In this document: positions 14,276-41,300 of the stretch, in pieces
How the letters are laid out: the number at the start of each line of letters is the position of its first letter
Position numbering within the stretch: the stretch's first letter is position 1
IMG/VR virus record: IMGVR_UViG_3300042465_002641
Coordinates: 1 to 44,721 of that record
Direction: 5' to 3' (one strand)
Source: a virus
DNA length: 44,721 nt
The notes under the pieces: model-generated
What the model saw: only the letters and a program-made list of their open reading frames with translations
The model's database searches: none
Told to the model about the DNA's origin: nothing
Made by a program: the position numbers and the translations under genes

Positions 14276-14401
14276 ATGAATCCCAATACACTTAATAAGT
14301 TTAAGAACCTCAAAAAGGGCAAGAAGAATGAGCAACCCAAAAAGAAGGGTGGCAAAGGTTGTTCCTGTGGTAAGCCCAAGTGCAACTGCGGGAAGTATTG
14401 A
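14276..14401 (+). CDS. 41-residue Lys-rich protein with CxC pairs
   Basis: ATG 14276 (2 bases after the preceding stop) to TGA 14399. The first 28 residues are very basic (LNKFKNLKKGKKNEQPKKK) and the end has two CxC pairs in CSCGKPKCNCGKY, a compact possible metal site. A second frame from ATG 14328 overlaps its second half. The spacing to the upstream gene supports translation; function unknown, perhaps a nucleic-acid-binding virion peptide. Confidence 0.5.
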   Translation: MNPNTLNKFKNLKKGKKNEQPKKKGGKGCSCGKPKCNCGKY

Positions 14402-14495
14402 CCCAGACGAGGACGAGGAAGAAGAGTATAATCCTATGGACTATATCTGGTTTACAAAATTTGAGCCGTGCGTTTCTAAAGAAACGCAGAGATAA
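14328..14495 (+). CDS. 55-residue protein in an overlapping frame
   Basis: ATG 14328 (inside the previous frame) to TAA 14493. It has a basic, Val-rich first half (RRVAKVVPVVSPS), a strongly acidic run (DPDEDEEEE) and a Tyr/Trp-containing end. It could be an out-of-frame gene nested with the 41-residue gene, or the two could be one product through a frameshift. The acidic tail after a basic start reads like a real protein rather than noise, but support is limited. The stop lies 1 base before tRNA-Thr. Confidence 0.4.
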   Translation: MSNPKRRVAKVVPVVSPSATAGSIDPDEDEEEEYNPMDYIWFTKFEPCVSKETQR

Positions 14496-14496
14496 C

Positions 14497-14572
14497 GCCA
14501 CTGTAACTCAATCGGCAGAGTATCTCTTTTGTAAAGAGAAGGTTGTCGGTTCAATTCCGTCCAGTGGCCCCA
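14497..14572 (+). tRNA. tRNA-Thr (anticodon TGT), CCA encoded
   Basis: Perfect acceptor stem GCCACTG/CAGTGGC, D arm ACTC/GAGT, anticodon stem TCTCT/AGAGA around loop TTTGTAA (anticodon TGT, reading ACA), T arm GTCGG/CCGTC around TTCAATT with one T-T mismatch, then C and an encoded CCA (14570-14572). Total 76 bases. It sits inside the late operon, next to an HNH endonuclease gene. Confidence 0.9.
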
Positions 14573-14580
14573 CTTTAGTA

Positions 14581-14617
14581 CCACCCCGCCCTCTTAACAA
14601 TGGTTTCTCTGGGGTGG
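14581..14617 (+). other. CCACCCC/GGGGTGG hairpin after the tRNA
   Basis: A perfect 7-bp GC-rich stem (14581-14587 with 14611-14617) around a 23-base loop, between the tRNA and the HNH gene. No T-run follows. It could mark the tRNA 3' processing region or limit HNH expression. Confidence 0.45.
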
Positions 14618-14631
14618 TCGTATTAACACCA

Positions 14632-15021
14632 ATGAGCGAAGAAGAAGTCTGGAAACCAATCCAAATCAAGCAGTTTGAAGGGCTGTACGAAATCTCCAGC
14701 CACGGGGAGGTTAGGTCTACCCCTAAAACGACATCAGATGGTCGTAGAATCAAAGCCAAGGTGCTTAAAAAGGGTAAGAATGGGGGAGGGTACTACAATG
14801 TTACGCTGTGCAATGATGGATTTAGGCACACGATTGTCGTTCATAAACTGGTAGCCATCCATTTTGAAAAGATTTTCCACAACGAACATGCTATTGACAA
14901 TCTGCAAATCAACCACATTGATGGTAACAAATTAAATAACAAGGCTGAGAATCTGGAATCGTGTACCCCTAGCGAGAACTTGCTCCACGCAGTACGGATG
15001 GGCCTTAGAACTTACAAATAA
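14632..15021 (+). CDS. HNH homing-type endonuclease with NUMOD4 domain
   Basis: 129 residues from ATG 14632. The N-terminal EEVWKPIQIKQFEGLYEISS, then HGEVRS, is the NUMOD4 DNA-binding module that precedes phage HNH nucleases. The C-terminal part carries the HNH core: HKLVAIHF, then LQINHIDGNKLNN and NLESCTPSENL. The enzyme should nick or cut DNA at one site and may spread itself, since it is a freestanding gene between structural genes. The longer open frame upstream runs through the tRNA and is rejected. The stop TAA is followed directly by the next ATG (15022). Confidence 0.92.
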   Translation: MSEEEVWKPIQIKQFEGLYEISSHGEVRSTPKTTSDGRRIKAKVLKKGKNGGGYYNVTLCNDGFRHTIVVHKLVAIHFEKIFHNEHAIDNLQINHIDGNKLNNKAENLESCTPSENLLHAVRMGLRTYK

Positions 15022-23283: not shown

Positions 23284-23652
23284 GTGTCAGACAACATCAT
23301 CCAGCACCTGTCTGAGGTAATTCCCGACCATCTCCGCAAGGGGGTGCAAGAGGAACTGCTTCGTGGTTGGAAGATGGAGGAAACTCAAGCAAAGCATCAA
23401 GCAAGACAACTTGGTGCTTTTTATCACCAAAACGATGCTAAAAACATCGAAGGAATGGGGAGGCTGGTGGGGGAAATCCCTACCGCCTCTTACCATTACT
23501 GGGGCAAGAGACTGGGCTACGACTGCTGGAAGGATGACGAATTTGTCCGTGAGTTTTTCCGTGACAATCCCGAATGTGCTGTTAAGAACTATGTGAAGAA
23601 CGCTTCTATCAATGGGGCTATCTTTACCGCTGATGGGCATCTAATGCAATGA
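23284..23652 (+). CDS. Hypothetical protein after capsid
   Basis: 122 residues starting at GTG 23284, the base right after the capsid stop. Helical, with many aromatic residues (TASYHYWGKRLGYDCWKDDE). Overlaps the connector gene by 4 bases at its end. In other phages this slot holds a small connector or head-completion protein, but no such family is evident here. No membrane segment or signal. Confidence 0.65.
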   Translation: MSDNIIQHLSEVIPDHLRKGVQEELLRGWKMEETQAKHQARQLGAFYHQNDAKNIEGMGRLVGEIPTASYHYWGKRLGYDCWKDDEFVREFFRDNPECAVKNYVKNASINGAIFTADGHLMQ

Positions 23653-24404
23653 GAACCGTAGACTTTTCCAGAATCCTCTTTGACTCTATTCAACTCTGCG
23701 GACTTGACCGAGACGAGGTCAACGATGCAACATTTTCTCAGATTAGAGACCTTGCAAACATGCGTCTCAAGTCGGCTTGGGAGTACGATGCGTTCCCCCA
23801 AGTTATCAAGTTTAGTGAAATCACTATACTTACGGATGCTAATAGCACTCCTTACTTTAATCTACCCTCCGATTGCGGGGAGATTCTTTCACTTTGGTCG
23901 GCAAACCCTGTAAACACGACAAGAAACAATCAGTTAACCTTTTTGCTTAACGATGAGCGTGTCTACCTTACTACAAATAGAAGCGGCACGGTTTGGGCAG
24001 AGTATAAGATTAAGGTTCCAGAACTCTTTGGTGAGGCTTGGGACCAGCCAATCGAGTTTAAGGTAGGCTCACAGGCTTACTTTGACTCTGGCTCCTTGAG
24101 TGGCGTGTATAAGCCAGTTAAAGGAAAGCCATACATTGGTAACTTTTACAACTGTAAGGTAAACAATGTCAATAAGCGTCCGTCCGAACATCCAGATGAA
24201 TGGGAAATTGTAAAGATTCCGTATATCTTTGCTCCTTATGTGACTAGGGCGGTTTACGCTGATTTCCTTCGTTCTGAAGGACAGGTCGATGCGGCTAGAG
24301 TTGCAGAGGCTGAAGCCCAAGCGTTCCTAGGCGAAGAAATTGATAAGATTGCTCGACAGCAGGGCCAAATTCGTAGAATTAACTTCATTAACCCATATTC
24401 CTAA
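23649..24404 (+). CDS. Tail adaptor/tubular A-like connector protein
   Basis: 251 residues. The helical N-terminal part (FSRILFDSIQLCGLDRDEVN, then FSQIRDLANMRLKSAWEYD) followed by a strand-rich middle and a helical C terminus (EAEAQAFLGEEIDKIARQQ) is the layout of the adaptor that binds below the portal in short-tailed phages (T7 gp11 type). Position between capsid and nozzle genes agrees. Sequence-level family match is not certain. It overlaps both neighbours (ATGA with upstream, TAATG with downstream). Confidence 0.72.
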   Translation: MRTVDFSRILFDSIQLCGLDRDEVNDATFSQIRDLANMRLKSAWEYDAFPQVIKFSEITILTDANSTPYFNLPSDCGEILSLWSANPVNTTRNNQLTFLLNDERVYLTTNRSGTVWAEYKIKVPELFGEAWDQPIEFKVGSQAYFDSGSLSGVYKPVKGKPYIGNFYNCKVNNVNKRPSEHPDEWEIVKIPYIFAPYVTRAVYADFLRSEGQVDAARVAEAEAQAFLGEEIDKIARQQGQIRRINFINPYS

Positions 24405-24700
24405 TGTCCAATATTGCTTTTTCATCCCCTTTCCTTAGAAAGTTCATCCATGACGACCTTACGGTTGGCACGAATTGGGTTGTTGCCCTTCCTGCCGCTA
24501 TCGCTCCCCAGCGTAGAATCGTTACTCTTATTCAGAACAAGAGCGACACGACCAACCTTTATGTTGCTCTGAACGAGACCTCTACCGAAGGCATTCTTAT
24601 CCCTATCAAGTCCAATATTTCTTTAGACAATTACAACGGAGTAATCCGTGTTAAGTCTGACGGTTCTGTTACTGCCCATATTGCCTACGCTACGGCTTAA
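24404..24700 (+). CDS. Small beta-rich virion-type protein
   Basis: 98 residues, mostly beta by eye (RRIVTLIQNKSDTTNLYVAL, then a strand ILIPIKSNISLDN and VIRVKSDGSVTAHIAYA). Small all-beta proteins in this place are often head or tail decoration proteins. TAATG overlaps at both ends put it in a translational chain between connector and the Cys-rich repeat protein, so it might attach that protein to the virion. No family recognised. Confidence 0.6.
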   Translation: MSNIAFSSPFLRKFIHDDLTVGTNWVVALPAAIAPQRRIVTLIQNKSDTTNLYVALNETSTEGILIPIKSNISLDNYNGVIRVKSDGSVTAHIAYATA

Positions 24701-26673
24701 TGCTTAACGCCCTCTTCAGAAATAATGGCTGGGTCATTTCTGTAGGAAAGGGCTTAGGGTCGGTATTGTTTCCTTGTCCGATTGCTGGTCAGTTTCTAAG
24801 AAACGCTCAGTCTGGAAACGGAATTAATTGGTCTGGTTGCGGCAATTATGGCTACAATGATACTAGCCTTGCCTATTATGATGTTTACACTGACGGTAAC
24901 TGTGGTGAGTATTCTACTCTTACTGGAAGTTGGCACAGACCTGCTGGCGATGTTCTTTACAACACTGGCTGTTGCCAAGTCATTTGGGATGGAAGTTATT
25001 ACTATGTAAACGACAACTGCAATCCTTGCGGTCAAGCCAACACTGAAACTGGAAACACGAGGGTCGTTAATGTTTCTGAAATTTACTGGGAAGGTTGTAA
25101 TTCAAGCGGCTATTTTAGCACTTCATACGACACCGAAATAGAGTATCACGATGGATACTGTGGTACTTTCTGGGAATACTTTAATACTGTTTGGGCTGAA
25201 GATGGGGCAACAATTTACAATTACAATAATTGTTGTTATGTTTACTACGATATTAGCGACTATCCTTACTACTATGTGCAGGATAATTGCAGTGGGAACT
25301 GCGAAGACCCTTACCTTCACGATGGGGAAGACCACTGGTGGTATGATGGTTGCAATTGGTGGTACACCCCCCCCTGTACCGATGCTGGACCTACTGGAAA
25401 TGTAAGAGATGTAGACCATCAGTATGTTTACTGGTCTGGTTGCGGAAACGATGGACAGTTCCTTATTACATACAACACTGAAGAAGAGTACCATGACGGT
25501 GCGTGCGGCTATTATTGGTCTTGGGTTAGCACTTGGAATGCAATGAATGGCGATGTTATTTACGACAGTGGTTGTTGCCAAGTTGTGTACGATTCTGTGA
25601 TGGGATACAATGTAAACGACAACTGTGGAAACCCTTGCACCAGTTCTGGAACTCCAACTGGAGCGTCTAACCTAATTTACGAATATACCATGCTGTGGTA
25701 TGGTTGCGGAACCTCTGGAAACTTCGTTTACGAAAATGAAATCTCTTACGAATACCATGATGGAGCATGCGGATTTTATTGGGATACTGTTCGATGGTGG
25801 GCACAAGATGGTGGAGTAACCGTTATTTACGATAACGGCTGTTGCCAAGTTATCTACAATTCTCCCGACAATTATTCTGTATTTGACAATTGTACCGAAC
25901 CGCCGCCTCCTTGCCCAGAGGCCAGTACGCCTACTGGAAACACTAGCACTGGAAGTTACTCTAACCTTAATTGGGATGGTTGCGGAACCTCTGGAGAATT
26001 TGCTTATTCGTATTCTGGAAACTCAACTGAATACCATGACGGAAATTGCTCTACCTATTGGGTAACTGATTCTTCGTGGGAAGCAAACAGTGGAGAAATG
26101 ATTTATGACGGTGGTTGCTGTACCGTTACCTATAGCCAATATGGCAGTTACAGCGTAAACGACAACTGTGGAGAGCCTCCTCCTCCCGACTACCCTTCTG
26201 CTGGAACGGTACTGTTTTCCTCTTCTTCCCCTGTAACGCAGGACATTACGGTTGATGGATATGACATGGAAGGTTCTTTCCAGTCCGTATTTGCCAGCGT
26301 CAACATTGCAAACACTTGGAGTAATGAGATTGCAGACGGCTTTGGTGGCTCAACATTTGAGTCTGGAACAGACTATGTGCTTGACGGTAGTACCGTATAC
26401 GACCCCTCAATTGGTGCTATCAGACTCCTTGACTGGTATCTGACTGACGGTGGCGGCTCTTACAGCGGTCAACTTCAAGTTGGCCTAGATGTCACCCCTT
26501 GGGTCATGTCTGGACAGGGTGCTATTCCTAGCGGAACCTCCTTCCTTGACAAATTCTCAGAAGGGTACATCATTTTTGAATCCAACGAATTTTGGAACGG
26601 AGATGCGAATGTAAAGACTCGTGTCGAATACCAGAACGGAGGAGGCTACATTACTACTACAATTACATTTTAA
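24700..26673 (+). CDS. Cys/Tyr/Trp-rich tandem-repeat virion protein, likely adhesin
   Basis: 657 residues with five tandem units of about 90 residues (near residues 40-112, 118-225, 226-312, 313-402, 403-495). Each has the same skeleton: W-x-GCG, then EYHDGxCGxYW, then an Ala/Gly turn, IYDxGCCQV, and a closing VNDNC, with five or more Cys at fixed places. The second unit has a 22-residue insert. A Pro-rich joint (EPPPPD) leads to a Cys-poor, beta-rich C-terminal domain (about 500-657). Such Cys-stabilised, aromatic-rich repeats would suit a surface-exposed receptor-binding fibre. I know no family for the repeat. Neighbours are connector and tail genes. Confidence 0.75.
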   Translation: MLNALFRNNGWVISVGKGLGSVLFPCPIAGQFLRNAQSGNGINWSGCGNYGYNDTSLAYYDVYTDGNCGEYSTLTGSWHRPAGDVLYNTGCCQVIWDGSYYYVNDNCNPCGQANTETGNTRVVNVSEIYWEGCNSSGYFSTSYDTEIEYHDGYCGTFWEYFNTVWAEDGATIYNYNNCCYVYYDISDYPYYYVQDNCSGNCEDPYLHDGEDHWWYDGCNWWYTPPCTDAGPTGNVRDVDHQYVYWSGCGNDGQFLITYNTEEEYHDGACGYYWSWVSTWNAMNGDVIYDSGCCQVVYDSVMGYNVNDNCGNPCTSSGTPTGASNLIYEYTMLWYGCGTSGNFVYENEISYEYHDGACGFYWDTVRWWAQDGGVTVIYDNGCCQVIYNSPDNYSVFDNCTEPPPPCPEASTPTGNTSTGSYSNLNWDGCGTSGEFAYSYSGNSTEYHDGNCSTYWVTDSSWEANSGEMIYDGGCCTVTYSQYGSYSVNDNCGEPPPPDYPSAGTVLFSSSSPVTQDITVDGYDMEGSFQSVFASVNIANTWSNEIADGFGGSTFESGTDYVLDGSTVYDPSIGAIRLLDWYLTDGGGSYSGQLQVGLDVTPWVMSGQGAIPSGTSFLDKFSEGYIIFESNEFWNGDANVKTRVEYQNGGGYITTTITF

Positions 26674-26675
26674 CC

Positions 26676-26882
26676 ATGAGCACAATTAAGAAAGAATTCG
26701 TTATCCCGAAGGGCTGGAACGCCCTTTATAACCCTGTTGAAAAGAAGGTCTATGTTTGCCGTGAATTTCCCCATGGCGGCAAGGCCAACTCGGTGCTTAG
26801 TCTGATTACTAAGCCTACGAAGGCTGAACTTCTTACTGCGTTTACCGAACTGGAACTTACTTGGACCGAACCTACCGCCTAA
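26676..26882 (+). CDS. Small hypothetical protein after the repeat protein
   Basis: 68 residues from ATG 26676 (MSTIKKEFVIPKGW), preceded by TTTTAACC. A longer frame starting inside the repeat gene is rejected. Likely a small beta domain (WNALYNPVEKKVYVCREFP) ending in an acidic helix and Thr/Glu tail. No family recognised. It may be a chaperone or attachment partner for the repeat protein, since chaperones often follow fibre genes (inference from position). Confidence 0.58.
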   Translation: MSTIKKEFVIPKGWNALYNPVEKKVYVCREFPHGGKANSVLSLITKPTKAELLTAFTELELTWTEPTA

Positions 26883-26888
26883 CATGAA

Positions 26889-28769
26889 ATGGCAGATTCT
26901 CTTAACAGTATCAGAAAAAAGCAAGGCGACTTTCAGTTTCTGTCTATCGACACTCGGAGCAACGGTACGGCTCTTAAAGAGGGTATGTTACAAGATGGCA
27001 GAAACATTCGTCTTGAACTACAGTCACTGGAAACAAGAAAAGGACTAAAGCAGTTCTTTTCGGACACAATCAAGGGGATTGTCCTCCCTGTCGCTGGCTC
27101 TTCGATTATTGCGTCTGGGGTAAGGGTAAAGCGTGACGGGACAGAGGAAATTGTCATTGTCGTAGAAGACGGGCTTTTCCTGTACGATATGAACTCTGGC
27201 TCGCCCCTCAGTTCTAAGTACAATTTCCCGACTGGAAGAAAGGCTATTGCTGGACAGACGCAGGTACTTCAAGCAGTCAACAATATCTACATCCTGCGTG
27301 GGGAGTCGGAGTTGTTTCGTGAAGGCGTGTCAAAGCATGTAAATGTTGGCAACGGCAACTACGACATAGTTGTTACTACAAACCTTGGTCATCAAGTTGC
27401 AGTTGGCACTGAAGTCATCCTTGAGTCTGAGCACGAAGAAATGAGCGGGTCTTTTGTGGTTAAATCTGTTCAGTCATCTAATCAGTTTACGGTATCGAGC
27501 AACTTCAACTCTAATCACCTTAGCGACCATCCAGTTCTTGTGTGCAAGGGTCGTGCTCCTCTTATCTTTAACGGGTCTTCAGTTACAGTAACTAGACAGG
27601 GAAGAATTGATGGCAGTATCAATGGAAACTCTCAGCATTGCGATTTTCCTCCGACTTCTAACGGTATCTACTTTAGAAACAGACTATACCTTAAGTACAG
27701 CCGTGATGAAATTGCTGTATCATATTACCTTCCCAACGAAACAGGAGACTGGGAATTCGACCTTAGCATTCAAGCCTTCCAGATTAACGCTGGTGACGAG
27801 CAGGAAATCGTAGGGTTCTACCCATGGAGTGGGAATAAGGTTCTCGTTCTGAAGACCAACAGCATTTACGAGGCCATCATTTCGGACAATACCACAAGCC
27901 CAGAGATTGTCCTTAAGGATACTACCATTAAGGCTCTTACCAACGACATTGGGTGCGTGGCTGAGCGTTCTATGGGCAATGTTTCTGGCTCCGTGTTCTT
28001 TCTTTCTGGGGCTGGCGTGTTTGCCCTTGAGCCGCAGATTGATGTACAACTGATTGCCAACACTTTCCCCCTATCGCAAAACATTCAAAAGTATGTTGAA
28101 CTAATTGATGTAAACAATTCACACAAGGCGGTAGGTCAAATCTTTGCTGGCAGATACTACTTGTCTGTTCCAATTGTCCTTGATGGGGTAAGTAGAATTA
28201 GCGTATTCGTATACAATCTTAACAACAAGAATTGGGAGTCTGTTGACACTTATCCTATTGGATTCAACATCGACAATATCTTGGTAGCCAGATTTGGTAG
28301 CCAGAGAAAACTCTTCTTCCTAGACAATAAGAATGGCCTGTTTCTTGCAGAAGAACTTGATGTTGACCAATTTGGCAAAACAACTGGGGCTAAAACTTTG
28401 GTACAGTGGCTTCCGTTTTACCTAAACGAGTACGAGTTTGCCTATAGCAATATTCAAATGTTTGCTAAAACAAGACAAATGGACTTTGGAACGCTTCAGC
28501 AGAAGAGGTTTGTTTCTTGCGAGTTTTACGCAAATTACGGGCTTGAGGGGGCAATCAAAGTTACCGCAAACACGATTAACCCAGATACCACTTATATGGC
28601 TGATATTTCTACTGCCTCGTTTGGTGAAGAACTTACTAGAGCCTTCCCCTTGCGTAAAAAGGGAACTGCTATTGAATTCGAATTGACTTCGTTGCAAGGC
28701 AGACCAAGCATTTACTCTATCGTGACCGAGGCTACTGCTGATGGTCGAGACCTAAGAAGCGAAAAATAA
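26889..28769 (+). CDS. Nozzle/tail tubular B-like protein
   Basis: 626 residues, nearly all beta strands with many paired YL-, VFxSG-like turns. The N-terminal region (GTALKEGMLQDGRNIRLELQ, then LETRKGLKQF) matches the common opening of short-tail nozzle proteins, where strands of a propeller begin after an N-terminal arm. It should form the hexameric tube below the adaptor (T7 gp12 type). Placement after the connector and before the collar-domain fibre agrees. Family identification is from layout and this N-terminal pattern, not from a search. Confidence 0.75.
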   Translation: MADSLNSIRKKQGDFQFLSIDTRSNGTALKEGMLQDGRNIRLELQSLETRKGLKQFFSDTIKGIVLPVAGSSIIASGVRVKRDGTEEIVIVVEDGLFLYDMNSGSPLSSKYNFPTGRKAIAGQTQVLQAVNNIYILRGESELFREGVSKHVNVGNGNYDIVVTTNLGHQVAVGTEVILESEHEEMSGSFVVKSVQSSNQFTVSSNFNSNHLSDHPVLVCKGRAPLIFNGSSVTVTRQGRIDGSINGNSQHCDFPPTSNGIYFRNRLYLKYSRDEIAVSYYLPNETGDWEFDLSIQAFQINAGDEQEIVGFYPWSGNKVLVLKTNSIYEAIISDNTTSPEIVLKDTTIKALTNDIGCVAERSMGNVSGSVFFLSGAGVFALEPQIDVQLIANTFPLSQNIQKYVELIDVNNSHKAVGQIFAGRYYLSVPIVLDGVSRISVFVYNLNNKNWESVDTYPIGFNIDNILVARFGSQRKLFFLDNKNGLFLAEELDVDQFGKTTGAKTLVQWLPFYLNEYEFAYSNIQMFAKTRQMDFGTLQQKRFVSCEFYANYGLEGAIKVTANTINPDTTYMADISTASFGEELTRAFPLRKKGTAIEFELTSLQGRPSIYSIVTEATADGRDLRSEK

Positions 28770-28770
28770 C

Positions 28771-29448
28771 ATGGGACAAATTACAAGCGGCTGGACATAC
28801 GAACCTAGTGGTATCAAATCTGAAGTTACGGCTGAAAACCTTAACGCACATGTCAATAATGCTCAACTTGTTGGTGGAGCCATTGACGAACAAGATACAA
28901 ATTCGCTTACGGCTGATACCGATAACCTGTTGATTACCAAGGGTGGTACTATTTTTAGACAGACTAAAGGTCAGTTTACGCATACTATTAACGCAAACAC
29001 GGTTAATGCTGTAAATCTTAATGGTGGTGCGATGGTTCCTATTGGCGGTATTATTATGTGGAGCGGCACAGAGGCGGCTCTTCCTGCTAACTGGAAAGTT
29101 TGCGATGGTACTAACGGTACTCCAGACCTTCGTGGAAAATTTGTCAGAGGTGGCAATGTTGCCAATCCGTCTGGCACTACTGGTGGTGCTGATTCTACGA
29201 CCCTTACTGGTCTGATGGTTCCAGAACACCAGCATCAATTCCGAATCAGACAGTTAGACTATATTGAAATTTTTGGAAGTTCGACTCTTACGGTTTGGGA
29301 TGTTTACCCTCAGTGGGATGAAAACCCTATTGTTAATACTCAAACTAGACTAACTGGCCCTGCCTCTGTTGGTGGAAATACCAACCCAACTCCAGTTCCG
29401 ACTGTTCCTGCTTTCTACGCCCTCGCATACATCATGCGAGTTTCCTAA
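28771..29448 (+). CDS. Tail fibre with phage tail-collar domain
   Basis: 225 residues. The N-terminal half is beta-rich and probably trimeric (GQFTHTINANTVNAVNLNG). The collar motif is clear at about residues 90-130: PIGGIIMWSGTEAALPANWK, then CDGTNGTPDLRGKFVRGG. The end (PTVPAFYALAYIMRV) closes in the usual way. Collar domains cap fibres or bind receptors. It begins 1 base after the nozzle gene. With the Cys-repeat protein it gives the phage two possible receptor-binding parts. Confidence 0.88.
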   Translation: MGQITSGWTYEPSGIKSEVTAENLNAHVNNAQLVGGAIDEQDTNSLTADTDNLLITKGGTIFRQTKGQFTHTINANTVNAVNLNGGAMVPIGGIIMWSGTEAALPANWKVCDGTNGTPDLRGKFVRGGNVANPSGTTGGADSTTLTGLMVPEHQHQFRIRQLDYIEIFGSSTLTVWDVYPQWDENPIVNTQTRLTGPASVGGNTNPTPVPTVPAFYALAYIMRVS

Positions 29449-29472
29449 CACCAAAATGAGACTTTTTAACTA

Positions 29473-30321
29473 ATGGGACTTGGTTCACTTATCGGTGGCT
29501 TCATGTCGAAGCCCAAAGATATGCCCCTTCCGAAAACTTACGGAGAGGTTGGCAATCAGAATATCGACATGCAGGAAGGCTGGCAACAGAACTATCTGGA
29601 TGCCGAGTCTAAATGGAGACCGCAATGGCAGAGACTCAATGAGTCCACCCTTGGCGGTCAGTTATTTGGTGGTCAAGGTAACGCTGGTTACCTTAGCATG
29701 ATTGGACAAGGCCAGCAGGGCAGTCTTGGAATGCAGGAGTCCTATGGTGCTGGTCAACTTGGAATGATGAGCCGCCTACAGGGTGGTGCTCGTGATGCGT
29801 ACGCAACTCCGCTGATGCGGTCTACCCAAGAGCAGATGTACAACCAAGGCATGCAGTTTGCCTCTGGTCAGTTGAGTGCTCAAGACAGATTTCAAGCAGG
29901 TCAGACTGCAAACATGGCTATGGCTGGTAGAGGTCTTACTGGAAGACAGGGCGTAGCCGCTAATGTGCTTGGCAACTACAATCTTTCACAGGACAGAATC
30001 ATGCAGGGCCAGAAGATGCTTCAAGGCGTTTTCAGCAATGAGGCTGGAATGGCTGACAATATTGCTGGGCTTACGCTTAGCGGAAGCAAGCAGATGGACT
30101 ATACGCAGGGTCTCTTTGGAAATGCGGCCAAGTCTCTTGGCTCCTACAATACTGGCATCTTTAACCCCGAATCTGAGCGTGGCTTCTCGCAGGATGCGGC
30201 CCGTTACAAGGCTGACATTGCCAATAGACTTGCTAAACAGCAGTGGAAGGCTGGCATGTGGAAGGAAGCGGGAGGCATGATTGATGATGGCATTAGTTAT
30301 GCCAGCGGAGGATTCGCCTAA
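29473..30321 (+). CDS. Gly/Gln/Met-rich internal virion-like protein
   Basis: 282 residues. A short N-terminal Gly stretch (GLGSLIGGFMSK) is followed by a long helical, Gln/Met-rich region (MIGQGQQGSLGMQESYGAGQ, then MGQFASGQLSA-like repeats) with few charges. This profile resembles the small internal core proteins of T7-like phages that form the ejection channel. It precedes two large virion-type proteins, as internal proteins do. Its stop overlaps the next start (TAATG). The role is inference. Confidence 0.65.
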   Translation: MGLGSLIGGFMSKPKDMPLPKTYGEVGNQNIDMQEGWQQNYLDAESKWRPQWQRLNESTLGGQLFGGQGNAGYLSMIGQGQQGSLGMQESYGAGQLGMMSRLQGGARDAYATPLMRSTQEQMYNQGMQFASGQLSAQDRFQAGQTANMAMAGRGLTGRQGVAANVLGNYNLSQDRIMQGQKMLQGVFSNEAGMADNIAGLTLSGSKQMDYTQGLFGNAAKSLGSYNTGIFNPESERGFSQDAARYKADIANRLAKQQWKAGMWKEAGGMIDDGISYASGGFA

Positions 30322-32369
30322 TGGCTGAGTCATACATCGACCCTAATCTGCTTGGTTGGCAGAAGGATAATGTCAACAAGTCCCTTGAGAGTTTCCAACA
30401 GCATACTGCTGACCTAAAGGCTCGTAGGGAGAAGTACGAAAAGTCTAACGAAGACCGCCAGCGTTTAATTGGCGTAGCCGAAGGTCTTGCCGAGCACTTT
30501 GCCCCGCAAGGCGAAGCGGCTCCGTCCTACATTCACAAGTTCCTTAAGAAGGCAGAGACCAATGGTGGTGTCCACCAGATGTCTACTGTCGAGATTGGTA
30601 AGTTCCTTGGGATGCATGGTACTGTTGAAAAACAGAGGGACATGGACATTGGCATGAAGGACAAGGAAAGCGTCATTGCTCTTCGTGAGGCTCAGACCAG
30701 AGGTGCTAATGCTACTACTGCGGCTACTCTTGGTGGAGAAAAGCGTGTTACCGATGAAACCAAGAGAGCGGATGCCCTCAGAGACTTCCTCCAGCAAACC
30801 TCAATGGAGGACATTGGAACTCCTACTAGGCAGGTTACTACCCCTACTGGCGTTGGTGTTCAAAATGTTAAGTTTAGAGACCCTAGAACTGGGCAGGAGA
30901 TTGCTATTGACCAGTCTGCTTATTCCGAAATTGGCCTTGATGAAAATGGTCAAGTAATCGACAAGGATGCCTTCTCGTATGCGTCCAGCCTTACGGCAAC
31001 TGAACTTGCTTCAATTACTGGTGCTTACATTGAGCCGAACGCAGATGTAAACATTAACGCTGAAGTCGATGCTAGTCGTGCCAGATGGAGAGATGTGATG
31101 GGCATGGAGCCAGAATCAATCTTTGATAAGGGTGGTGCTAGAAAAGAAGTCAGAGGTGCTGATGGTTCGATGAGACCAGAACCTAGCCCTCACGAAAACC
31201 ATGCAAGGCTGATTCGGGCCATTAATCATAATCCCAAACTTTTCCCGAATGGAGTTCCTGCTACATACAAGGGTAGAAATGTTGCACAAGGTTACTCTGC
31301 ATCTGGACGGGGAAGAAAAACTACGCTTACGGTTGATGAAGCAGATGCTCTTCAAGAGTTCGTAGTTGATACACTTGAGTCAAAGGGGTACTCAGATTTG
31401 GCTACAGTTGGCAGGTTAGTCCGTGGTCACCGAGAGATTGCTAAGGCTGAACAAGCCAACGCACTGATGTTTGAGAAGAAGATGATTCTCGAAACAACGG
31501 ATAAGGTTATTGATGACCAAGCCGAACTGGCTTCTATCAGATACGACAAGGTTGCCGCCAGATGGAAGGCTCAGAACCTACCCCCGCCCATGCCTAAGGC
31601 CGCATACATTGCCGCCAGCGTCCCAGAACTTACACGAGTAATTCCTCAAGTTGACGAGTTCGGTAGAGCCACTGGTGCGGTTAAGACATTTGTTAAACTT
31701 GGAGACACTTGGAAGGATGTTACTGCTGAAAAGACTATGCCTTCTGCTGTTGATTCTTGGAAGAATACGGAAGCCCAAGGCAAGGAAAACATGCTTAACT
31801 TTAACGGTCAATACGGCTCTATTGTTATCAATGGCAGAGCAACCGCATTTGACGAAAAGGGTGTGTCCGACCTTTCGGACGCTCTTAACGACATGGATGC
31901 GTTTAATGAAAACATGGACCTGCTTAAGGAACTGTACAGTAAGCACAACTTTGTTGAGAGACTTAATCCTACAAGTGCTGTCCGTGCTCAAATCAAGGGT
32001 CTTATTGGAAGAACCCAGCCCATGATTCGAAAGATTATTCTTGGTACTGGTGTTGTTACCGAGCCAGACCAATCCAGACTTAATGCTTTGTTTAGAGACC
32101 CAGACTCATTTGAGACTTGGTTTAACGACCCAGCCAATATTGCAGAGTTTGAAGCAACCAAGGGAGTGCTTGAACAGAAAGCCATTGCGTTGCTTAATAA
32201 GCACAAGGTTGTTCAGCCAGACGGAAAGCGTGGCTTTATGGTTGGGGGTAAAGGCAACAAGGGTAAGGCTAAAGCCCTTGAACTGCTGGCAGTTAACGAA
32301 AGAGGTTATAAGTTGACTCCAGCAGATGTTGCAGTCATCAAGGAATATAACCCTTCTTTCGGACAATGA
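30321..32369 (+). CDS. Large helical internal virion/ejection protein
   Basis: 682 residues, strongly helical with coiled-coil parts (ESFQQHTADLKARREKYEKS) and a mixed charged middle. No lysozyme, protease or other enzyme motif is visible. It starts by TAATG from the previous gene and ends by ATGA overlap into the giant ORF, so three consecutive putative ejection proteins are translationally linked. T7-like phages carry such internal proteins here; sequence similarity to a known one is not claimed. Confidence 0.65.
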   Translation: MAESYIDPNLLGWQKDNVNKSLESFQQHTADLKARREKYEKSNEDRQRLIGVAEGLAEHFAPQGEAAPSYIHKFLKKAETNGGVHQMSTVEIGKFLGMHGTVEKQRDMDIGMKDKESVIALREAQTRGANATTAATLGGEKRVTDETKRADALRDFLQQTSMEDIGTPTRQVTTPTGVGVQNVKFRDPRTGQEIAIDQSAYSEIGLDENGQVIDKDAFSYASSLTATELASITGAYIEPNADVNINAEVDASRARWRDVMGMEPESIFDKGGARKEVRGADGSMRPEPSPHENHARLIRAINHNPKLFPNGVPATYKGRNVAQGYSASGRGRKTTLTVDEADALQEFVVDTLESKGYSDLATVGRLVRGHREIAKAEQANALMFEKKMILETTDKVIDDQAELASIRYDKVAARWKAQNLPPPMPKAAYIAASVPELTRVIPQVDEFGRATGAVKTFVKLGDTWKDVTAEKTMPSAVDSWKNTEAQGKENMLNFNGQYGSIVINGRATAFDEKGVSDLSDALNDMDAFNENMDLLKELYSKHNFVERLNPTSAVRAQIKGLIGRTQPMIRKIILGTGVVTEPDQSRLNALFRDPDSFETWFNDPANIAEFEATKGVLEQKAIALLNKHKVVQPDGKRGFMVGGKGNKGKAKALELLAVNERGYKLTPADVAVIKEYNPSFGQ

Positions 32370-35300
32370 ACAAGTCTTTCTACTACGACAACGCTGAATC
32401 TTTAGGTAAAATTCAACAGGATTTACTGTTTCTAGATACTGTAAAAGACCCGCTTAAAAACCCATATTCTGTTGCGGCTACGGAAGCGGCTAAGCCAGAA
32501 GAAGACATCCTTACAAAGGGTGAGCGTGAGGCTTACCTTATCTCTAATTATGCCAAGCGTGGCTATGTTCCCACCAAGGAAGGCCATGATGCTTACGAGG
32601 CTTACAGAAAGGCTACCGACCCTAATGGTTGGGCTATTCTTTGGGATGCGGCTAAGCATGCAACTAGTACGGTCATTGGCGGTGCTTATGACATGGTTGC
32701 TTCGGGAGATATTCTAAATCCAATTACTACTGCTGGCACACTTGCCGAAGGCACTGGTCGTGGTACGAGATACTTTACCTCCATGGTCGATACGATTAAG
32801 TACGACCCGTCTAACCCTATCAACAGATACCTGTTTTCGCAGGGAGATTCTGACCAGAGATATGCTGACTTCCAGAAGGGTCTGGCCTTCCAGCGTGAGA
32901 CTGGAGAGATTGAAGAAAATGGATACTGGGTTCCCAAGAAGGACTGGGATATCGAAGGTTGGAAAGTTAAGTCTTATAACGAACAAGGCGTGGCGGCGGC
33001 TGAGATGTTCCTTGACCCTTCCATTCTGGCCCCAGAACTGAAAATTGGTCAGTTCTTTGCTAAGTCTATGATTGGACACACCATTGCATCTGCCGCTACT
33101 AGAGTCGCAGTCAAGGGTGCTTCTATTGCTGAGAAGGTTGCCATGGGGACCGAGAAGACCATGGGTCAACTTTCGAGAACTGCACAGGGACTCTTTGAGT
33201 ACCCTGCTCAGAAGTTGGCTGATTTTTCTGGGGTTGAAACTCTTACTACTTCTAGCGGCAAGATTATCGCCAAGGATTCAATTGTCCGTTCTTCGTCCAT
33301 GGCCCTTGGTGGTGCGGCTTACATGACGCAGATTCCTTTCCTTTCTCCAGTTGCTGGCGTTTGGCTTGGCTCTAAGGTTATGGAGATTGGTGCTAAGACT
33401 GTCGCAGAAGCGATGGCTCACTCCAAGGCATCTTCTTACCTTACGATTGCTGACAGACTGGCGTACCAGAGCACAGACCCTGCTGTCCGTGCTATTGGCG
33501 GCATGGCAATGAGAATGAACGGATTCACCGATTGGGCTACGCAGGGAGTTAAGTCTACCTTCCATGGCTCGATGTATGGTGGTGCGTTCGGATTTGCCAT
33601 GGGTGGCGAAGAAGGATTCTACAGCGGTGTTGGTACTGGTATCGGCCTTGCTGGCTCCTTCCACATGCTTGGCGGTGCTTATGGCATTGTTGGCAATAGA
33701 ACAGAAAGACAAATTCAAAACGCTCAGAAGCACTTTGCCTATGTGGCTGAAGGCTTTGACGAAGCCAAGCGTGTCGGGGTCAACAGACTGCTCCAGAATA
33801 TTGAAGATGTGTATGGACAGGAAAAAATGTTTAGAACGATGGCAAATATTGCCGCCACTGAACGCCTTAACAAGAACGGTAGAAACCTCATCCTTACTAC
33901 TGAGCAGATTAGAACTCTCCTTGGGGAGTCCCCAGAATGGAGCGAGTATCAGAAGTTGATGAAAGACCCTCAGTTTGGTGGCTACACTACCAGACGCTCT
34001 GACACTGGAGAAATCGTTACGCTCATCAACGCAGACTATGCCGCTCATTCTGCGGTCACTGGAGAACTGTTCCACTCTGCGTTGCTTCAGCGTTATGGTC
34101 AGTCCATGAAGGAGAACATCGTCAAGAACATGCTTGGCACTGTAGATTCTGACGGGTTCCTCTACAAGATGTCCCCAGAGTCTCGCATTAAACTGCTTGA
34201 AGACTTTAGAGACGGATACCTTGAACTGGATTCCGCTACTGGAGATGCATCCCAGAGACAAATGCTCCCCATCTTTAACGATGCCATTGAGCGTGTTCGC
34301 AAAGGTGAGCGTCCAGAAACCCTTTACCCTATCTTCGAAGAGTTCGCTGAAGCCTACTTCAATCGATGGGTTGAAGATAAGCCAATTGACTATCTGCTTA
34401 GAGGCAATAGCCCCCTAGAGGCTGTCTTTGATGGTGCTAAGAAGATGGTGAGAGGTCTTATGTCTGGAGACGCAGACCAGATTGGCGGCAGAATTCAGTT
34501 CAAGTCTGGTCAGCCAGAAGGATTCTTCCTCAATTCCAAGGGCAAGAGAGTTGTCATTCCCGAAATGGACAGAGCGATGGCTATGCTCGTCCGTGAGATG
34601 AAGCGTGACCCAGATGCACTTGAAGGATTCCCCATTCGTGACAACGCAAACCCTCACCACATCATGCTCAAGGAAGCAGAGCACCTGTTTACCCGTGATG
34701 AATCTGGCAAGATGGTCCTCAAGAGCGAAGAGCAAATCGACAAAGAAAACACCAAGGCTTTCTCTGGACTCCTAGCGGCTCACCAGAGACTAAAGCCAGA
34801 AGACAAGGGTCTCAGATTCGTGGCTATCCAAGAGGGTGGTGCTAGAGTTGAAGGTTCCTATGCTCCTAAGAGCAAGAAGGTCTCTGAACTTGAAGCGGAA
34901 GCAAAGGCTGTCGAGAAGGCTATTAAACAGCGTAAGGCTAGACTGCTGGGCGAAGCCGCTAAGATTGCTAAACTTTCTGAGAAGGAGAAGCGTCAACTTG
35001 TAAAGGATAGAGACCTTGAGGCTACTAACGAAGTTGAATATCTTAAGGAAGCCTCTGAAGTTGAGGGTATTGCCGAGTACAGAATCGAAGGCTACATGAC
35101 CGACAAGGAGGCCGCACTGTTCACCGAATACCTTCCTAAGTATGTAGTTCAGAAGATGCTCAAGTTGAACCGTGTCATCCACCAGAAGGGTGCTGATGGC
35201 AACAATGTCCTACGCTTTGATTACAAGGGCAAGGACGAGCAGAAGTTTAAGTTTACACAGGAGTCGGGAAGAAACACTGGTGCTGGTAACGAACGCCATC

Positions 35301-38300
35301 AAGGCAGAGTTAAGACCAGAGATGTTATTCCTTACGAGATGGTCCTTAAGTTTGAGCGTCAGAAACTTACCAAGGCACTGCGTGAAGAGTTCGAAATTGA
35401 CGACAAGGATATTAAGTACCTCGTTGGAAAGCCTGTTCTTATCGTGGAAGGCATCGACATGAAGGCTCTGGACCGCAGAGTGCGGTACGCTTTCAACCAC
35501 ATGCGTAGGCACGATGCTCCTCGCTCCATCAGTTCTGCCACGGTAAAGATGCATTACGAATCGGAAGAAGAGATTCACCACGACATCAAGCGTCTGTTTG
35601 CTAATTACAGTCTTGGTGACCACGCCATGGCTGGTGCTGACTTCTTTGGTGGCGGTGCTGAAGGCAGAGCCAAGCGAGAAATCATCAATGGCATTATCGG
35701 TGCTCGCCCTTACAAAGGTATGGACCCTGCTACCATGCAGGAGAAGGGGTTCCACTATGCTCCCGACCTCCAGCAGGTTGGCGGTCAGAAGGGTACTGAA
35801 GGCGGTCCGCTCAATGAAGCGTTCATGGTCTTTACTAGATTCCGTGTTGACCGAATCCTTGACCAGCCCAAGCACCTGCACGGTGAAGGCTTCTACTACA
35901 ACCACAAGAACGCCCACCCGCTTAACAAGGGCAACTTCGCCCCTGCTTCTAAGTCCCTAAGAGACCATACGGGCAGAGTGCTTAGCCAGTCCGAAAGACT
36001 GTTGCAGGATGAGACTACATTCAAGAGTCCCAGCGGTGAGCCTTACAGACTGTTCACCAGCGAAAACGAGGGCGGTGTTCACTACGCTTGGTTTGATGAA
36101 GAGGGAGCCACGGCTACCCACAAGGACCATACTCAAGGATACCTTACCCTTAAGGCTGACGAAGTCTTAGACCTTATCGGTACTGAGGTTCAATCCGTCA
36201 AGGAACTGGACAAGGGGTTCATGCGTTCCATTTCTGACATGGGATACAAGGCTGTCGTTATTAGAACGGCTGACCAAAACAGAGTCGTTGCTTTTACTGA
36301 TTTCCAAAACTTCAGACAGACAGATGTCTCTGCGGCTGATTTTATCACTGGAAACTTTGCTGGCAGAAGCAGAAGCATTGCTGAAAGAACCAGAGAGAGA
36401 CTTGGCCTTACATCTGGAGGTACTCCTGCCCCTGCGGCTGGCAAGCCTATGACTATGGCTGAGCGTACCAGAGCCAGACTTAAGGTTACTGAACCAGCAT
36501 TAAAGCCTGTTATGGACCAAAAGGTCTTCCAAGCACACAGGGACAAAACGGAAGCACACTTTAGAGCGGTTGCTATTTTTGAAACCTTTAGAAGTGGAAT
36601 TAAGAAGGGACAAGGTCTTGCATTCTTTAATCAAGATACTCCTACATTAAAATCCCACCCTTCGTATCAGCAGTTTCAGACTCTTGTTTCAAAACTTAAT
36701 CCAGAAGTCAGAAAGCAAACGAATGCTCTCTTGCTTGAGATGGCAGATGAATACTACAGAATCAATTCCGAACGAGAAAAGGGAATCGTTCTGCCAGAAC
36801 GCATTGCTGAAAGAAACGCTTCCAAAAAATTGGATGAAGTAAATCAGTTGATGACTAAGGAAGGTCTTACTGACAAAGAGAAGAGAACCGACCCAAGATA
36901 TACAAAAGCGTTCTCAGAATGGAACACCGCAAACGAAGCAAAGAAGGTGGCAGAATCTGGCATTATCTTTAAAGACCCGTTCAAGACTGTATACGAAAAG
37001 TACGAAAAACTCCGAGATACTCTTGCTGATGAGCAGGAGGCTTATGTCAATTCTACAAGAAGGGCTACTGATGTTGAAGAAGGTGCGGCCTCTGCCGAAA
37101 TCAAGGTAGAGGTTGGCAAGGACATCACTACCGAGATTGCCGCCAAGACCTTTACGCCAGAACAACAGGCAAGAATCAATCGTTCGATGGCCCAAAGAAA
37201 GGGTCTCCTTGACGATAGACAGTTCTGGATTGATGTCAGAAAAGAAACCGCTACCGTCAGAGACGGGTTCGTCAAACAGATGGCTCAGTTCCCAGAGTTC
37301 AAGGGATGGACTGAAGCAGAAATCTATCGTTCTACCTACAATAGCATCTTCGGCAAGGATGCCTCTGTCTCTATCACCAAGGGAGGCAAGGTGTCCTTCG
37401 GTGTTATCCAGTCCCTCTCTCCCTCTGAGTACCACTCCTACAGAGAGCGTGGCGTACTGCCCCGTGACATCAAGCAGAGAACCGTAGCCGACATTGACCT
37501 TGCTCTTCTAGAGAACTGGAAGCGTAGCCATGCCCTTAAGAAGGGGCTTGAGAAGGTTCGTGCCGACCAGAAGTTGTCCCGTGACAGACGCATTAAAGCC
37601 GAGGAAAGATACAACAAAGAACTGGAGACCATCAGAAACGAACTGATTCAGATGCTGGCATCCTACAAGTTGTTTGATGTTGCTGACGAAGTCCTTGGTG
37701 CTGTTCAAAGCACATCCAAAAAGTGGGTTGAAGAAAAGAAGATGATGAGCGGTGAAGAGGCTGGCTGGACCCCCGCCAGAAAGATTGACCCTAACACCAC
37801 TCCTAAGTCTTGGGAAATCTCCCATGACAACTCTGTCACCTTTGAACTGCTTAGTGAAATGTATCCCGAACTGGGACGCACGGACCCTCTGACTGTTCAA
37901 GAGGCACTTAGTAATCCTAAGATTAATGCTCTAAGACAGCAGATGGGCCTTAACGCATTTAAGGACACCCTTGAGTTCTTCAACAAGTACAACCTTGAGG
38001 AACACGCCAAACTCAAGAAGTCCGCACAGGAAGACCTTGCCCTTTACATCAAGGAAAAGGAGAAGATTGATTACGACATTAAGGCCGCTGAGTCTCGCTC
38101 TAAGAAGTTTGATACCACAGAACTCAGAGCAAAGAGCAACGAACTAGCCAGCAAGATTCTCAAGAAACAGAGCGAGAAAGACCCCATCATTGACAGATGG
38201 ACTAACCAAGACTTCATTGAAAAGTCCGTTTTCGAAATCCTGCAACTTGAGCCAGACCAGAGAGGCGAACTCATTGAATCTGTTCGTGCTCAACTGGCTG

Positions 38301-41300
38301 AAGGTGGCGGCAAGTTGGTCGGTGTGTTTGATGAAACCCTTGTTAGAAATGGCGTTACCGCACCCAAGGAAGCCCTTGGCAAGGTTACAACCCAGCGTGA
38401 TGTAGCAGACCCTAACACCAGAACAATCGACCCTAATGACAACGGTAGCAAGTACCGTGATGCCATGGACGAGGCGTACAGAGTCCTACAGACCTCTATC
38501 AAGAAGGATGGGGTTAGAACCCCGTTGCAGAAGTACGCTGTGCTGATGCAGTCGCTTGCTAGAAATTACAAAAAGAACAGCAAGAACCCAGCGATTAAAC
38601 AGAAACTCAATCAACTTGAGCAGATGTTCAAGGAGACCGAGCAGGTAACCGATGTCAGACTTAAGGCGGCTTACGCTAAGATGCTCGACTACGGCTTTGT
38701 TTCTATGAGTTGGTCTGGTGATGACAATCTTCAGACACTCCCTGCGACTGGTCACTACACCAAGATGGTTCCGTCTACGCCCAAGAAGATTGGCAACGAT
38801 TTCAATAAACTAAAAGAGACAAAAGGAATCAAATTCGTCAAGCAGAAGGTCGTGTTCCGTTCGTCTGACACGACAAAGGTTTCTAACCTTGAACTACAAA
38901 AGGCCGTAGAGACCGCCAGAAAACGCTTCTCGCATCTCTTTGAAGACGAGACTGATGACTTCATTGTCACAGCCGCAAGCAAGGATGGTGGCATGCGTGG
39001 CATTGCCGTTGACAGAACTATCGAAGGTGGCCCTACAAATTTCTACCTTACTGGTGAAGCCAAGACTATCCGCAAGTGGCTGGAATTCCAGAAACTGCGT
39101 GACGGTCAAGAGGAAGCCACTGACGCTAGAGTTGTCTACATCGACAAGGAGCCTAAGTATGTCCTTGCCCGTGGTCTGGACTCCAATGAAGTCCTCTACA
39201 TCCCCTACGATGAGATGATGATGCACGGGGAAGAGAAGACCCTTAAGGCTATCCAAGGCAAAACCATCTTTTGGTCTCGTGACTCCGTTGTTGAAGGCAA
39301 ATCTAAGTACAGAAAGTTTAGCAGTCTCGACCAATTGCTCGATGAGGTTAAACACTTTGAGGTTATCAGAGAGGCTACCCATGGGGACAGCGTTAAGCAG
39401 TACGGTGCGTACAAGGCTAACGGTTTCCATATCAATGGTAAGTTCTTCAAGACAATGGAAGATGCCAAGAGATTGGCTACCATTGACGCACAGGATAGCC
39501 ACGCTTACGAGTTGGTGTTCCAGACTGCTACCAGACTAGACAAGGATGCCTATGTAGCCGCCCTTGCGATGATTCAGTCTAACACTGGCATCCAGTACAC
39601 TGAGGCTCTCAAGGAAGCCACTGGATTCCAGCAGGTTAAGAAGACCTTCATTGATAACCCGAACTACAATCCCAACATGCCTTCTGGCAAGGGGTTCAAT
39701 CAGCGTAAAATCCCTCAGACATTTAATGTCTCTGGGTCTAACCGCCCAACCGAGTTCAAGAAACTGGCAGTGTACCGTGCTGGCAACCTGCTGTTGGTCA
39801 CCTCAGACAACATGAGAGATGTGCTTACGAGACTTGAACCAGAGTCCAAGGTTCCGACCAAGGGCGGCAGAGCCAAGAACATTGAAGCCATTGCCAGAGA
39901 ATCACAGGGCGATTTCAACAGGTCCAAGAAGGCTATTGGAGACCTCTACAGAATCGTGAAGGACGACAACGGTGAGATGGCTGGCGTTGAATGGGTCAAG
40001 CACTACGACAACCCCTCGCAGGTTTCTGAAATGCTGGACAAGATGAACGATGCTGAGTTTATCGACATTGATACTACCCTCGACTTCCACACTCGTTTGA
40101 CCAAGCAGATGAAAGGACTGCTGTCTGCTAACTTCATGAAGGAGAAGCGTAAGATTTGGGAAGTTCTTTCCAAGAACCCAGACAAGATTGCTAAGATTAA
40201 AGAAAGACTTCGTGAAATTGACAAAACTTACGAACAGGCTCTCATCGAAAGAGGTCTAAAAAACGCAGACAAGAAGACGATTGCTAGAGAAATCACTAGA
40301 CTTAATGAGGCTCTAAACGAGAACACTGATTCTTTTGACCAGCACTTGCTTTATCTGGCTACCGAAGGTGTTCTGACAAAGCACAAAGAAACTGTTGATT
40401 TGCTAGTTGGAGAAGGAAAGCCGTTCGATACTTTTGAAGAACTTCAACAGGCTGAACAGGATGTATTCGATGCTAGAAAGCCTTTGCTTGGTGAACTAAA
40501 AACCAAGAACGAACAGCACGAATCTGGTCGTACAATTACTCAGTCTGAGATTATTGCTTCTGTTGATGAACTTGTCAGAATTTCTGCAAACTCTTCAAAG
40601 CACCTAGAGACATTAGACATTATGACTGGTGACGGTCTGGGTTTTTCAGATGAAGTTGAAGCATTGTATAGAGAAGGAAACTTTCTCTACAGACAGTTGT
40701 GGGCCGCTAAGGGCGGCAGTGACAAGGTTCTTTCTGGAGTTGATGCGTTTGAAATTGCCGACAAGGGAATGGGAAGTAACAAAAAGAGTAAGGTAATGTC
40801 CAAGCAGGAACTTAGAGACTACCAGAAGGAAACCCGTAGAATTGAAAAGAATGTTCCCCAGAAAGAAGAAGATGTTCCGCTTGGCACTGTTGAGCAGATG
40901 ATGGCTGAGAGCATTGGTGTTGGTAACAAAGAAAATGGAGACAAGACTCCTCGCTACATTCCTCGTTCTGAAGCAGTCCTTGATAAGTTCGGCAATCCCA
41001 CCGAAGAATTTGCTGAAAAGGAATCGTTTGTGTCAACAAGAGAGTACCTCCGTAGATTCAGACTTCTGCTCTCCGACCTTGCTGACACTCACAAGAAGTT
41101 TGGAGACCCTACATCCTTGGATAAACTGGACCTCAAGACTATCCTTGAGACGGATGCCTCGTTGCTTCCTCTCAAAGACAGTGACGGCTCTCTTAGCAGA
41201 GAAGAAGTCATCAGAAAGATGGCAGAAAGCGTCACCAATGGTGAAGAATTCATTGCCTCCTATCTTCAATCTCCCGAAGCCAAGAAGTTCAAGGAGACCG

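Follow-up and report, generated by a model that had tools for sequence, protein, structure and literature searches.

Tandem six-cysteine units in a probable tail-fibre or adhesin protein of a tailed phage

The reading frame at positions 24700-26673 (+ strand) of the window, a 44.7-kb virus record, predicts a 657 aa protein with 32 Cys that is probably a modular, disulphide-clipped tail fibre or adhesin of the virion. It represents a new family of repeats at a familiar type of site, the variable fibre/adhesin slot. The chief interest lies in its strict six-Cys pattern and in the apparent exchange of a single module between near-identical phages. The window also encodes an SU10-type major capsid protein (E 7.3e-37), which identifies the virus as a tailed phage.

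Repeat architecture of the Cys-rich protein

The start of the reading frame overlaps the final base of the stop codon of the preceding gene, and the protein was defined from the frame, its composition and relatives on contigs L001/L002, L006, L007 and L093. Five units of 82-88 aa with six Cys each span residues 26-490, preceded by a conserved Cys-free N-terminal segment (24700-24774, residues 1-25; 0.81-0.99 nucleotide identity) that may be an attachment part. Unit 1 is located at 24775-25020 (residues 26-107), unit 2 at 25027-25290 (residues 110-197), unit 3, the unit used for structure prediction, at 25375-25626 (residues 226-309), unit 4 at 25636-25893 (residues 313-398) and unit 5 at 25912-26169 (residues 405-490), all on the + strand. 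The linker between units 2 and 3 (25291-25374, +) is 28 residues long in the window versus 3-4 residues in relatives, and alignment with these shows an insert unique to the window that includes two extra Cys, C201 and C218.

The tandem repeat reported in the first-pass annotation is real. A profile constructed from the units of other phages only, with the window's own units excluded, recovered units 1 to 5 with scores of 95.7, 80.4, 100.9, 76.8 and 103.8 bits (431.6 in total), and the maximum obtained with 1,000 shuffled versions of the window protein was -0.7 bits. Compared pairwise, the window units score 113-224, against a shuffle maximum of 84. The number of units was therefore given correctly, but the repeat had been drawn over the complete reading frame, the remainder of which lies outside the Cys units. 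Among the shared motifs, EYHDG-CG-YW does not extend to unit 1, which has VYTDGNCGEY. The GC, DGxC, CC and DNC elements are present as described, but the Cys of the linker had been overlooked and there are six Cys per unit.

Cysteine pattern and predicted disulphides

Cys accounts for 4.87% of this protein and for 0.75% of the other listed proteins of the window. Six Cys are found at fixed positions (C1, C23, C44, C67, C68 and C84) in all 16 units of the window, L002, L006 and L007, where C1 is the Cys of the Pro-rich linker and is assigned to the unit that follows (e.g. PPCPDAG in L002). The four proteins contain 32, 18, 24 and 24 Cys, respectively, with exactly six per unit, and the only Cys outside the units are the pair in the window's linker insert. 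When L093 is included, all Cys of the five proteins fall in even sets, save for a half unit cut by the end of the L093 contig. L093 has two full units with six Cys, and a last unit with four, in which C1 and C44 are both gone and DGxCG has become DGMGG. Random loss of two of the six Cys would remove exactly this pair with a chance of 1 in 15, and the joint loss, seen once, is supportive of a C1-C44 pairing, though not conclusive.

An AlphaFold model of the unit, predicted from a 16-row alignment, is all beta with a pLDDT of 94.4, and Cys pairing was read from the limits of its strands rather than from distances. Strands 5-22 and 25-40 are separated by a two-residue turn, and an antiparallel hairpin of these strands would oppose residues whose numbers sum to about 47, placing C1 beside C44. 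The last hairpin (68-73 with 77-82) would set C84 beside C67, and C23 would then pair with the remaining Cys of CC. The most likely arrangement is three disulphides per unit, linking C1 to C44, C23 to one of the CC pair and C84 to the other.

Both disulphides and metal sites had been suggested for the fixed Cys. The parity of the Cys, their paired loss and the strand register favour disulphides, because C1 and C44 are lost together and lie side by side in the AlphaFold register. An even, conserved number of Cys per module and loss in pairs (seen once) is the pattern of a disulphide-stabilised repeat protein. Binding of zinc or an iron-sulphur centre would account for the conservation of CC and the single Cys, as well as that of Asp at DG and DN, but is very unlikely, as the unit alignments include no conserved His and no CxxC or HxxC knuckle of a zinc-ribbon or metal-site domain within the unit, and the other four Cys are intact after the joint loss of C1 and C44. 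In addition, C84 and the next linker Cys are adjacent in L093 but up to 7 residues apart elsewhere, a variation that speaks against a metal knuckle and also against a constant bond between neighbouring units. The metal-site reading was rejected because of this spacing and the paired loss.

Cys-free unit and C-terminal cap

The last 167 residues (491-657) contain no Cys. The first 80 of these, corresponding to a degenerate unit at 26170-26409 (+; about residues 491-570) in which ADGxGG replaces DGxCG, match the unit in identical register in a profile-profile comparison (E 6.4e-6, probability 85%). The match was also found before L093 was added (P 0.0011), and single-sequence scores between the Cys-free tail and the unit were equalled by 0-16 of 2,000 shuffles. 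A Cys-free version of the unit fold thus seems to exist, which would make the Cys a reinforcement. The final 87 residues (26410-26670, +; residues 571-657) align as a conserved cap, and the terminus NVKTRVEYQNGGGYITTTITF is kept in all five proteins, with one N-to-S change in L002.

Relatives and exchange of units

A scan of 2.9 million viral contigs detected the gene in five further contigs, L001, L002, L006, L007 and L093. A sixth, L008/L030, breaks off within the gene, with residues 1-74 identical to those of the window. As had been anticipated, the number of units differs between related phages, with five in the window, three in L001 and L002, which encode an identical protein, and four in each of L006 and L007. 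L093 is cut by the contig start and retains a half unit plus three, i.e. at least 3.5 units. Among nine virus records searched, some of which are fragments, the unit was found in five and not in those of L012, L017, L019 and L096. No relative was found by tblastn in named phages or plasmids, and no member was detected by protein patterns in bacterial and archaeal genomes. In the same genomes, the DNA pattern for W-GC-...-Y-DG-C gave chance matches only, the best scoring 19 bits in a 52-aa frame, compared with 51-437 bits for true members.

L006 and L007 are 98-100% identical in the adaptor, the 98-aa gene, the N-terminus and unit 1, 97-98% identical in unit 3, the cap and the nozzle, and 90.8% identical in the Cys-free unit. 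Unit 2 is only 76.9% identical, the drop starting and stopping near the unit borders, and unit 2 of L007 is closer to unit 2 of L002 (84.8% identity). Likewise, unit 1 of the window shares 93.9% identity with unit 1 of L002 (dS 0.17), and identity between the two is 69-78% in units 2-3 and in the adaptor, 98-aa and nozzle genes. The patterns in both pairs are as would be expected of recombination of whole units. The difference between L006 and L007, being confined to a whole unit, would suit recombination better than a diversity-generating retroelement.

Comparison with known families and folds

The Cys-rich protein has no family match above chance in Pfam, NCBIfam or PHROG, and a sequence search of the PDB gave no match, so that the units match no named family, as first supposed. 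No known fibre family was matched in these databases or among named phages. A fold search of the PDB with the unit model returned no match below E 0.86. The full-length AlphaFold model has a pLDDT of 40, too low for use, and no trimer or shaft was seen.

In BFVD, the unit fold matches A0A6J5MSM5 (E 2.4e-4, probability 1.00, 34% identity), A0A6J5QNF1 (E 0.036, probability 0.98) and A0A6J5NUZ5 (E 0.074, probability 0.96), the last of which is named a collagen triple helix repeat protein. These are uncharacterised proteins of uncultured Caudovirales phages, and only such proteins were found to share the unit's predicted fold. A weak match to A0A514DCQ8 (E 0.27, probability 0.69), a fragment from a Leviviridae sp. 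RNA phage, is likely due to chance.

The fibre slot and its neighbouring genes

The slot is bounded on the left by an adaptor-like gene (23649-24404, +), which has a weak SU10_adaptor match below the Pfam cutoff, and on the right by a gene for a 626 aa nozzle-like tail protein (26889-28769, +), assigned from its position and from weak tail/virion PHROG matches of its homologues. A Cys-free 98-aa gene (24404-24700, +) directly upstream of the Cys-rich gene is part of the same slot in the reading frame list and slot comparison. Directly downstream is a small gene of 68 aa (26676-26882, +) with no Pfam match, which follows the Cys-rich gene in the window, L002, L006 and L007; in relatives with a classic fibre, the slot is too short for a counterpart. 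Folding of the Pam3 fibre requires a chaperone (PMC9608196), and on this analogy our guess is that the small gene may encode a fibre-assembly helper.

Relatives were located by capsid and nozzle for comparison of the slot. The L012 slot protein matches tail-fibre PHROGs (E 3.8e-16), those of L017 and L013 do so more weakly, and fibre-like sequences occupy the same slot in L014, L019 and L095-L100. Two of these slot-mates have weak fibritin matches, and the best matches of the slot-mates are to tail-fibre families. The Cys-rich gene thus belongs to the tail gene cluster and occupies the position taken by fibre genes in relatives. The tail-fibre slot-mates in the lineage (L012, L013 and L017; PHROGs 4209, 22682, 25848, 25379 and 8443) share its variable length and content but differ from the window protein in being without Cys-rich units.

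A second fibre-type gene with a tail collar domain is present at 28771-29448 in the window, 13448-14260 in L002, 12787-13830 in L012 and 14420-15505 in L017. It differs in length and C-terminal sequence among relatives, which suggests two variable fibre loci in the lineage.

Proposed function

From the gene position and the tail-fibre genes in the slot of relatives, we infer that the protein is located in the virion and binds a receptor. Beyond the N-terminus, a variable number of all-beta units of about 85 aa would be followed by one Cys-free copy of the unit and the conserved cap. Three disulphides would clip each Cys unit and stiffen the modules; their formation would take place after lysis or under oxidising conditions. 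Recombination between phages may alter both the number and the identity of the units, so that fibres would vary in length or in the surface that binds, within a slot occupied by another fibre gene in relatives. Gain, loss or swapping of modules would probably change which cells the phage can grip, and it is through variable, recombining parts of their fibres that phages keep up with changing hosts.

Two other roles were considered. The protein might be a virion decoration or a neck/collar appendage, whisker-like or capsid-bound, with modules that loosely hold surface glycans or particles, in which case the collar-domain protein encoded at 28771-29448 would be the real receptor binder. This is unlikely though not negligible; the downstream fibre-type gene with its tail-collar match and the fibritin matches of two slot-mates are in its favour, but slot-mates match tail-fibre families best and recombination of whole modules, although no proof, is characteristic of receptor-binding proteins. 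A protein that is not part of the virion, but released at lysis or displayed on the infected cell, for instance as a binder blocking rivals or debris, is extremely unlikely. Disulphides would suit work outside the cell, but the gene is part of a compact structural operon, with the adaptor-like and nozzle-like genes on either side, its slot-mates are fibre proteins, and no obvious signal peptide was seen by eye.

For the tail fibre or adhesin, near-identical phages would exchange single modules, which appear reliant on disulphides despite assembly in the cytoplasm. Phage particles are built in a cytoplasm that is usually held to be reducing. Disulphides are reported in the tail hubs of crAss001 (PMC10172136) and, for Pam3, between the fibres and the baseplate, as cited in PMC11821841. 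In both cases, as proposed here, the tail or fibre parts of a tailed-phage virion carry disulphides (PMC10172136; PMC11821841), but the bonds described there join proteins or subunits, whereas those predicted in the window lie within each repeated module. The earlier statement that disulphides are uncommon in phages is tempered by these precedents, though a fibre-slot protein with three disulphides in each of its modules would remain unusual.

Whether the six-Cys, three-disulphide beta-modules are a new family of exchangeable phage-fibre building blocks, with single oxidised modules added, deleted and swapped, is evenly balanced. On that reading they would parallel the disulphide-rich repeat adhesins of cells. 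Testable questions arise on the timing of bond formation, on whether the host is oxidising and on whether host range depends on how many modules, or which, a fibre contains. The module could also serve protein engineering as a stable scaffold.

Additional features of the window

The genes from 28771 to 43876 contain one Cys in about 5,000 aa. The late virion-region genes at 29473-30321, 30321-32369 and 32366-43876 are almost Cys-free, and the last predicts a protein of 3,836 aa with no Cys and no PHROG match. An HNH endonuclease reading frame (14380-15021) overlaps a tRNA-Thr gene (14497-14572) near its start, and translation of the endonuclease probably begins downstream of the tRNA gene.
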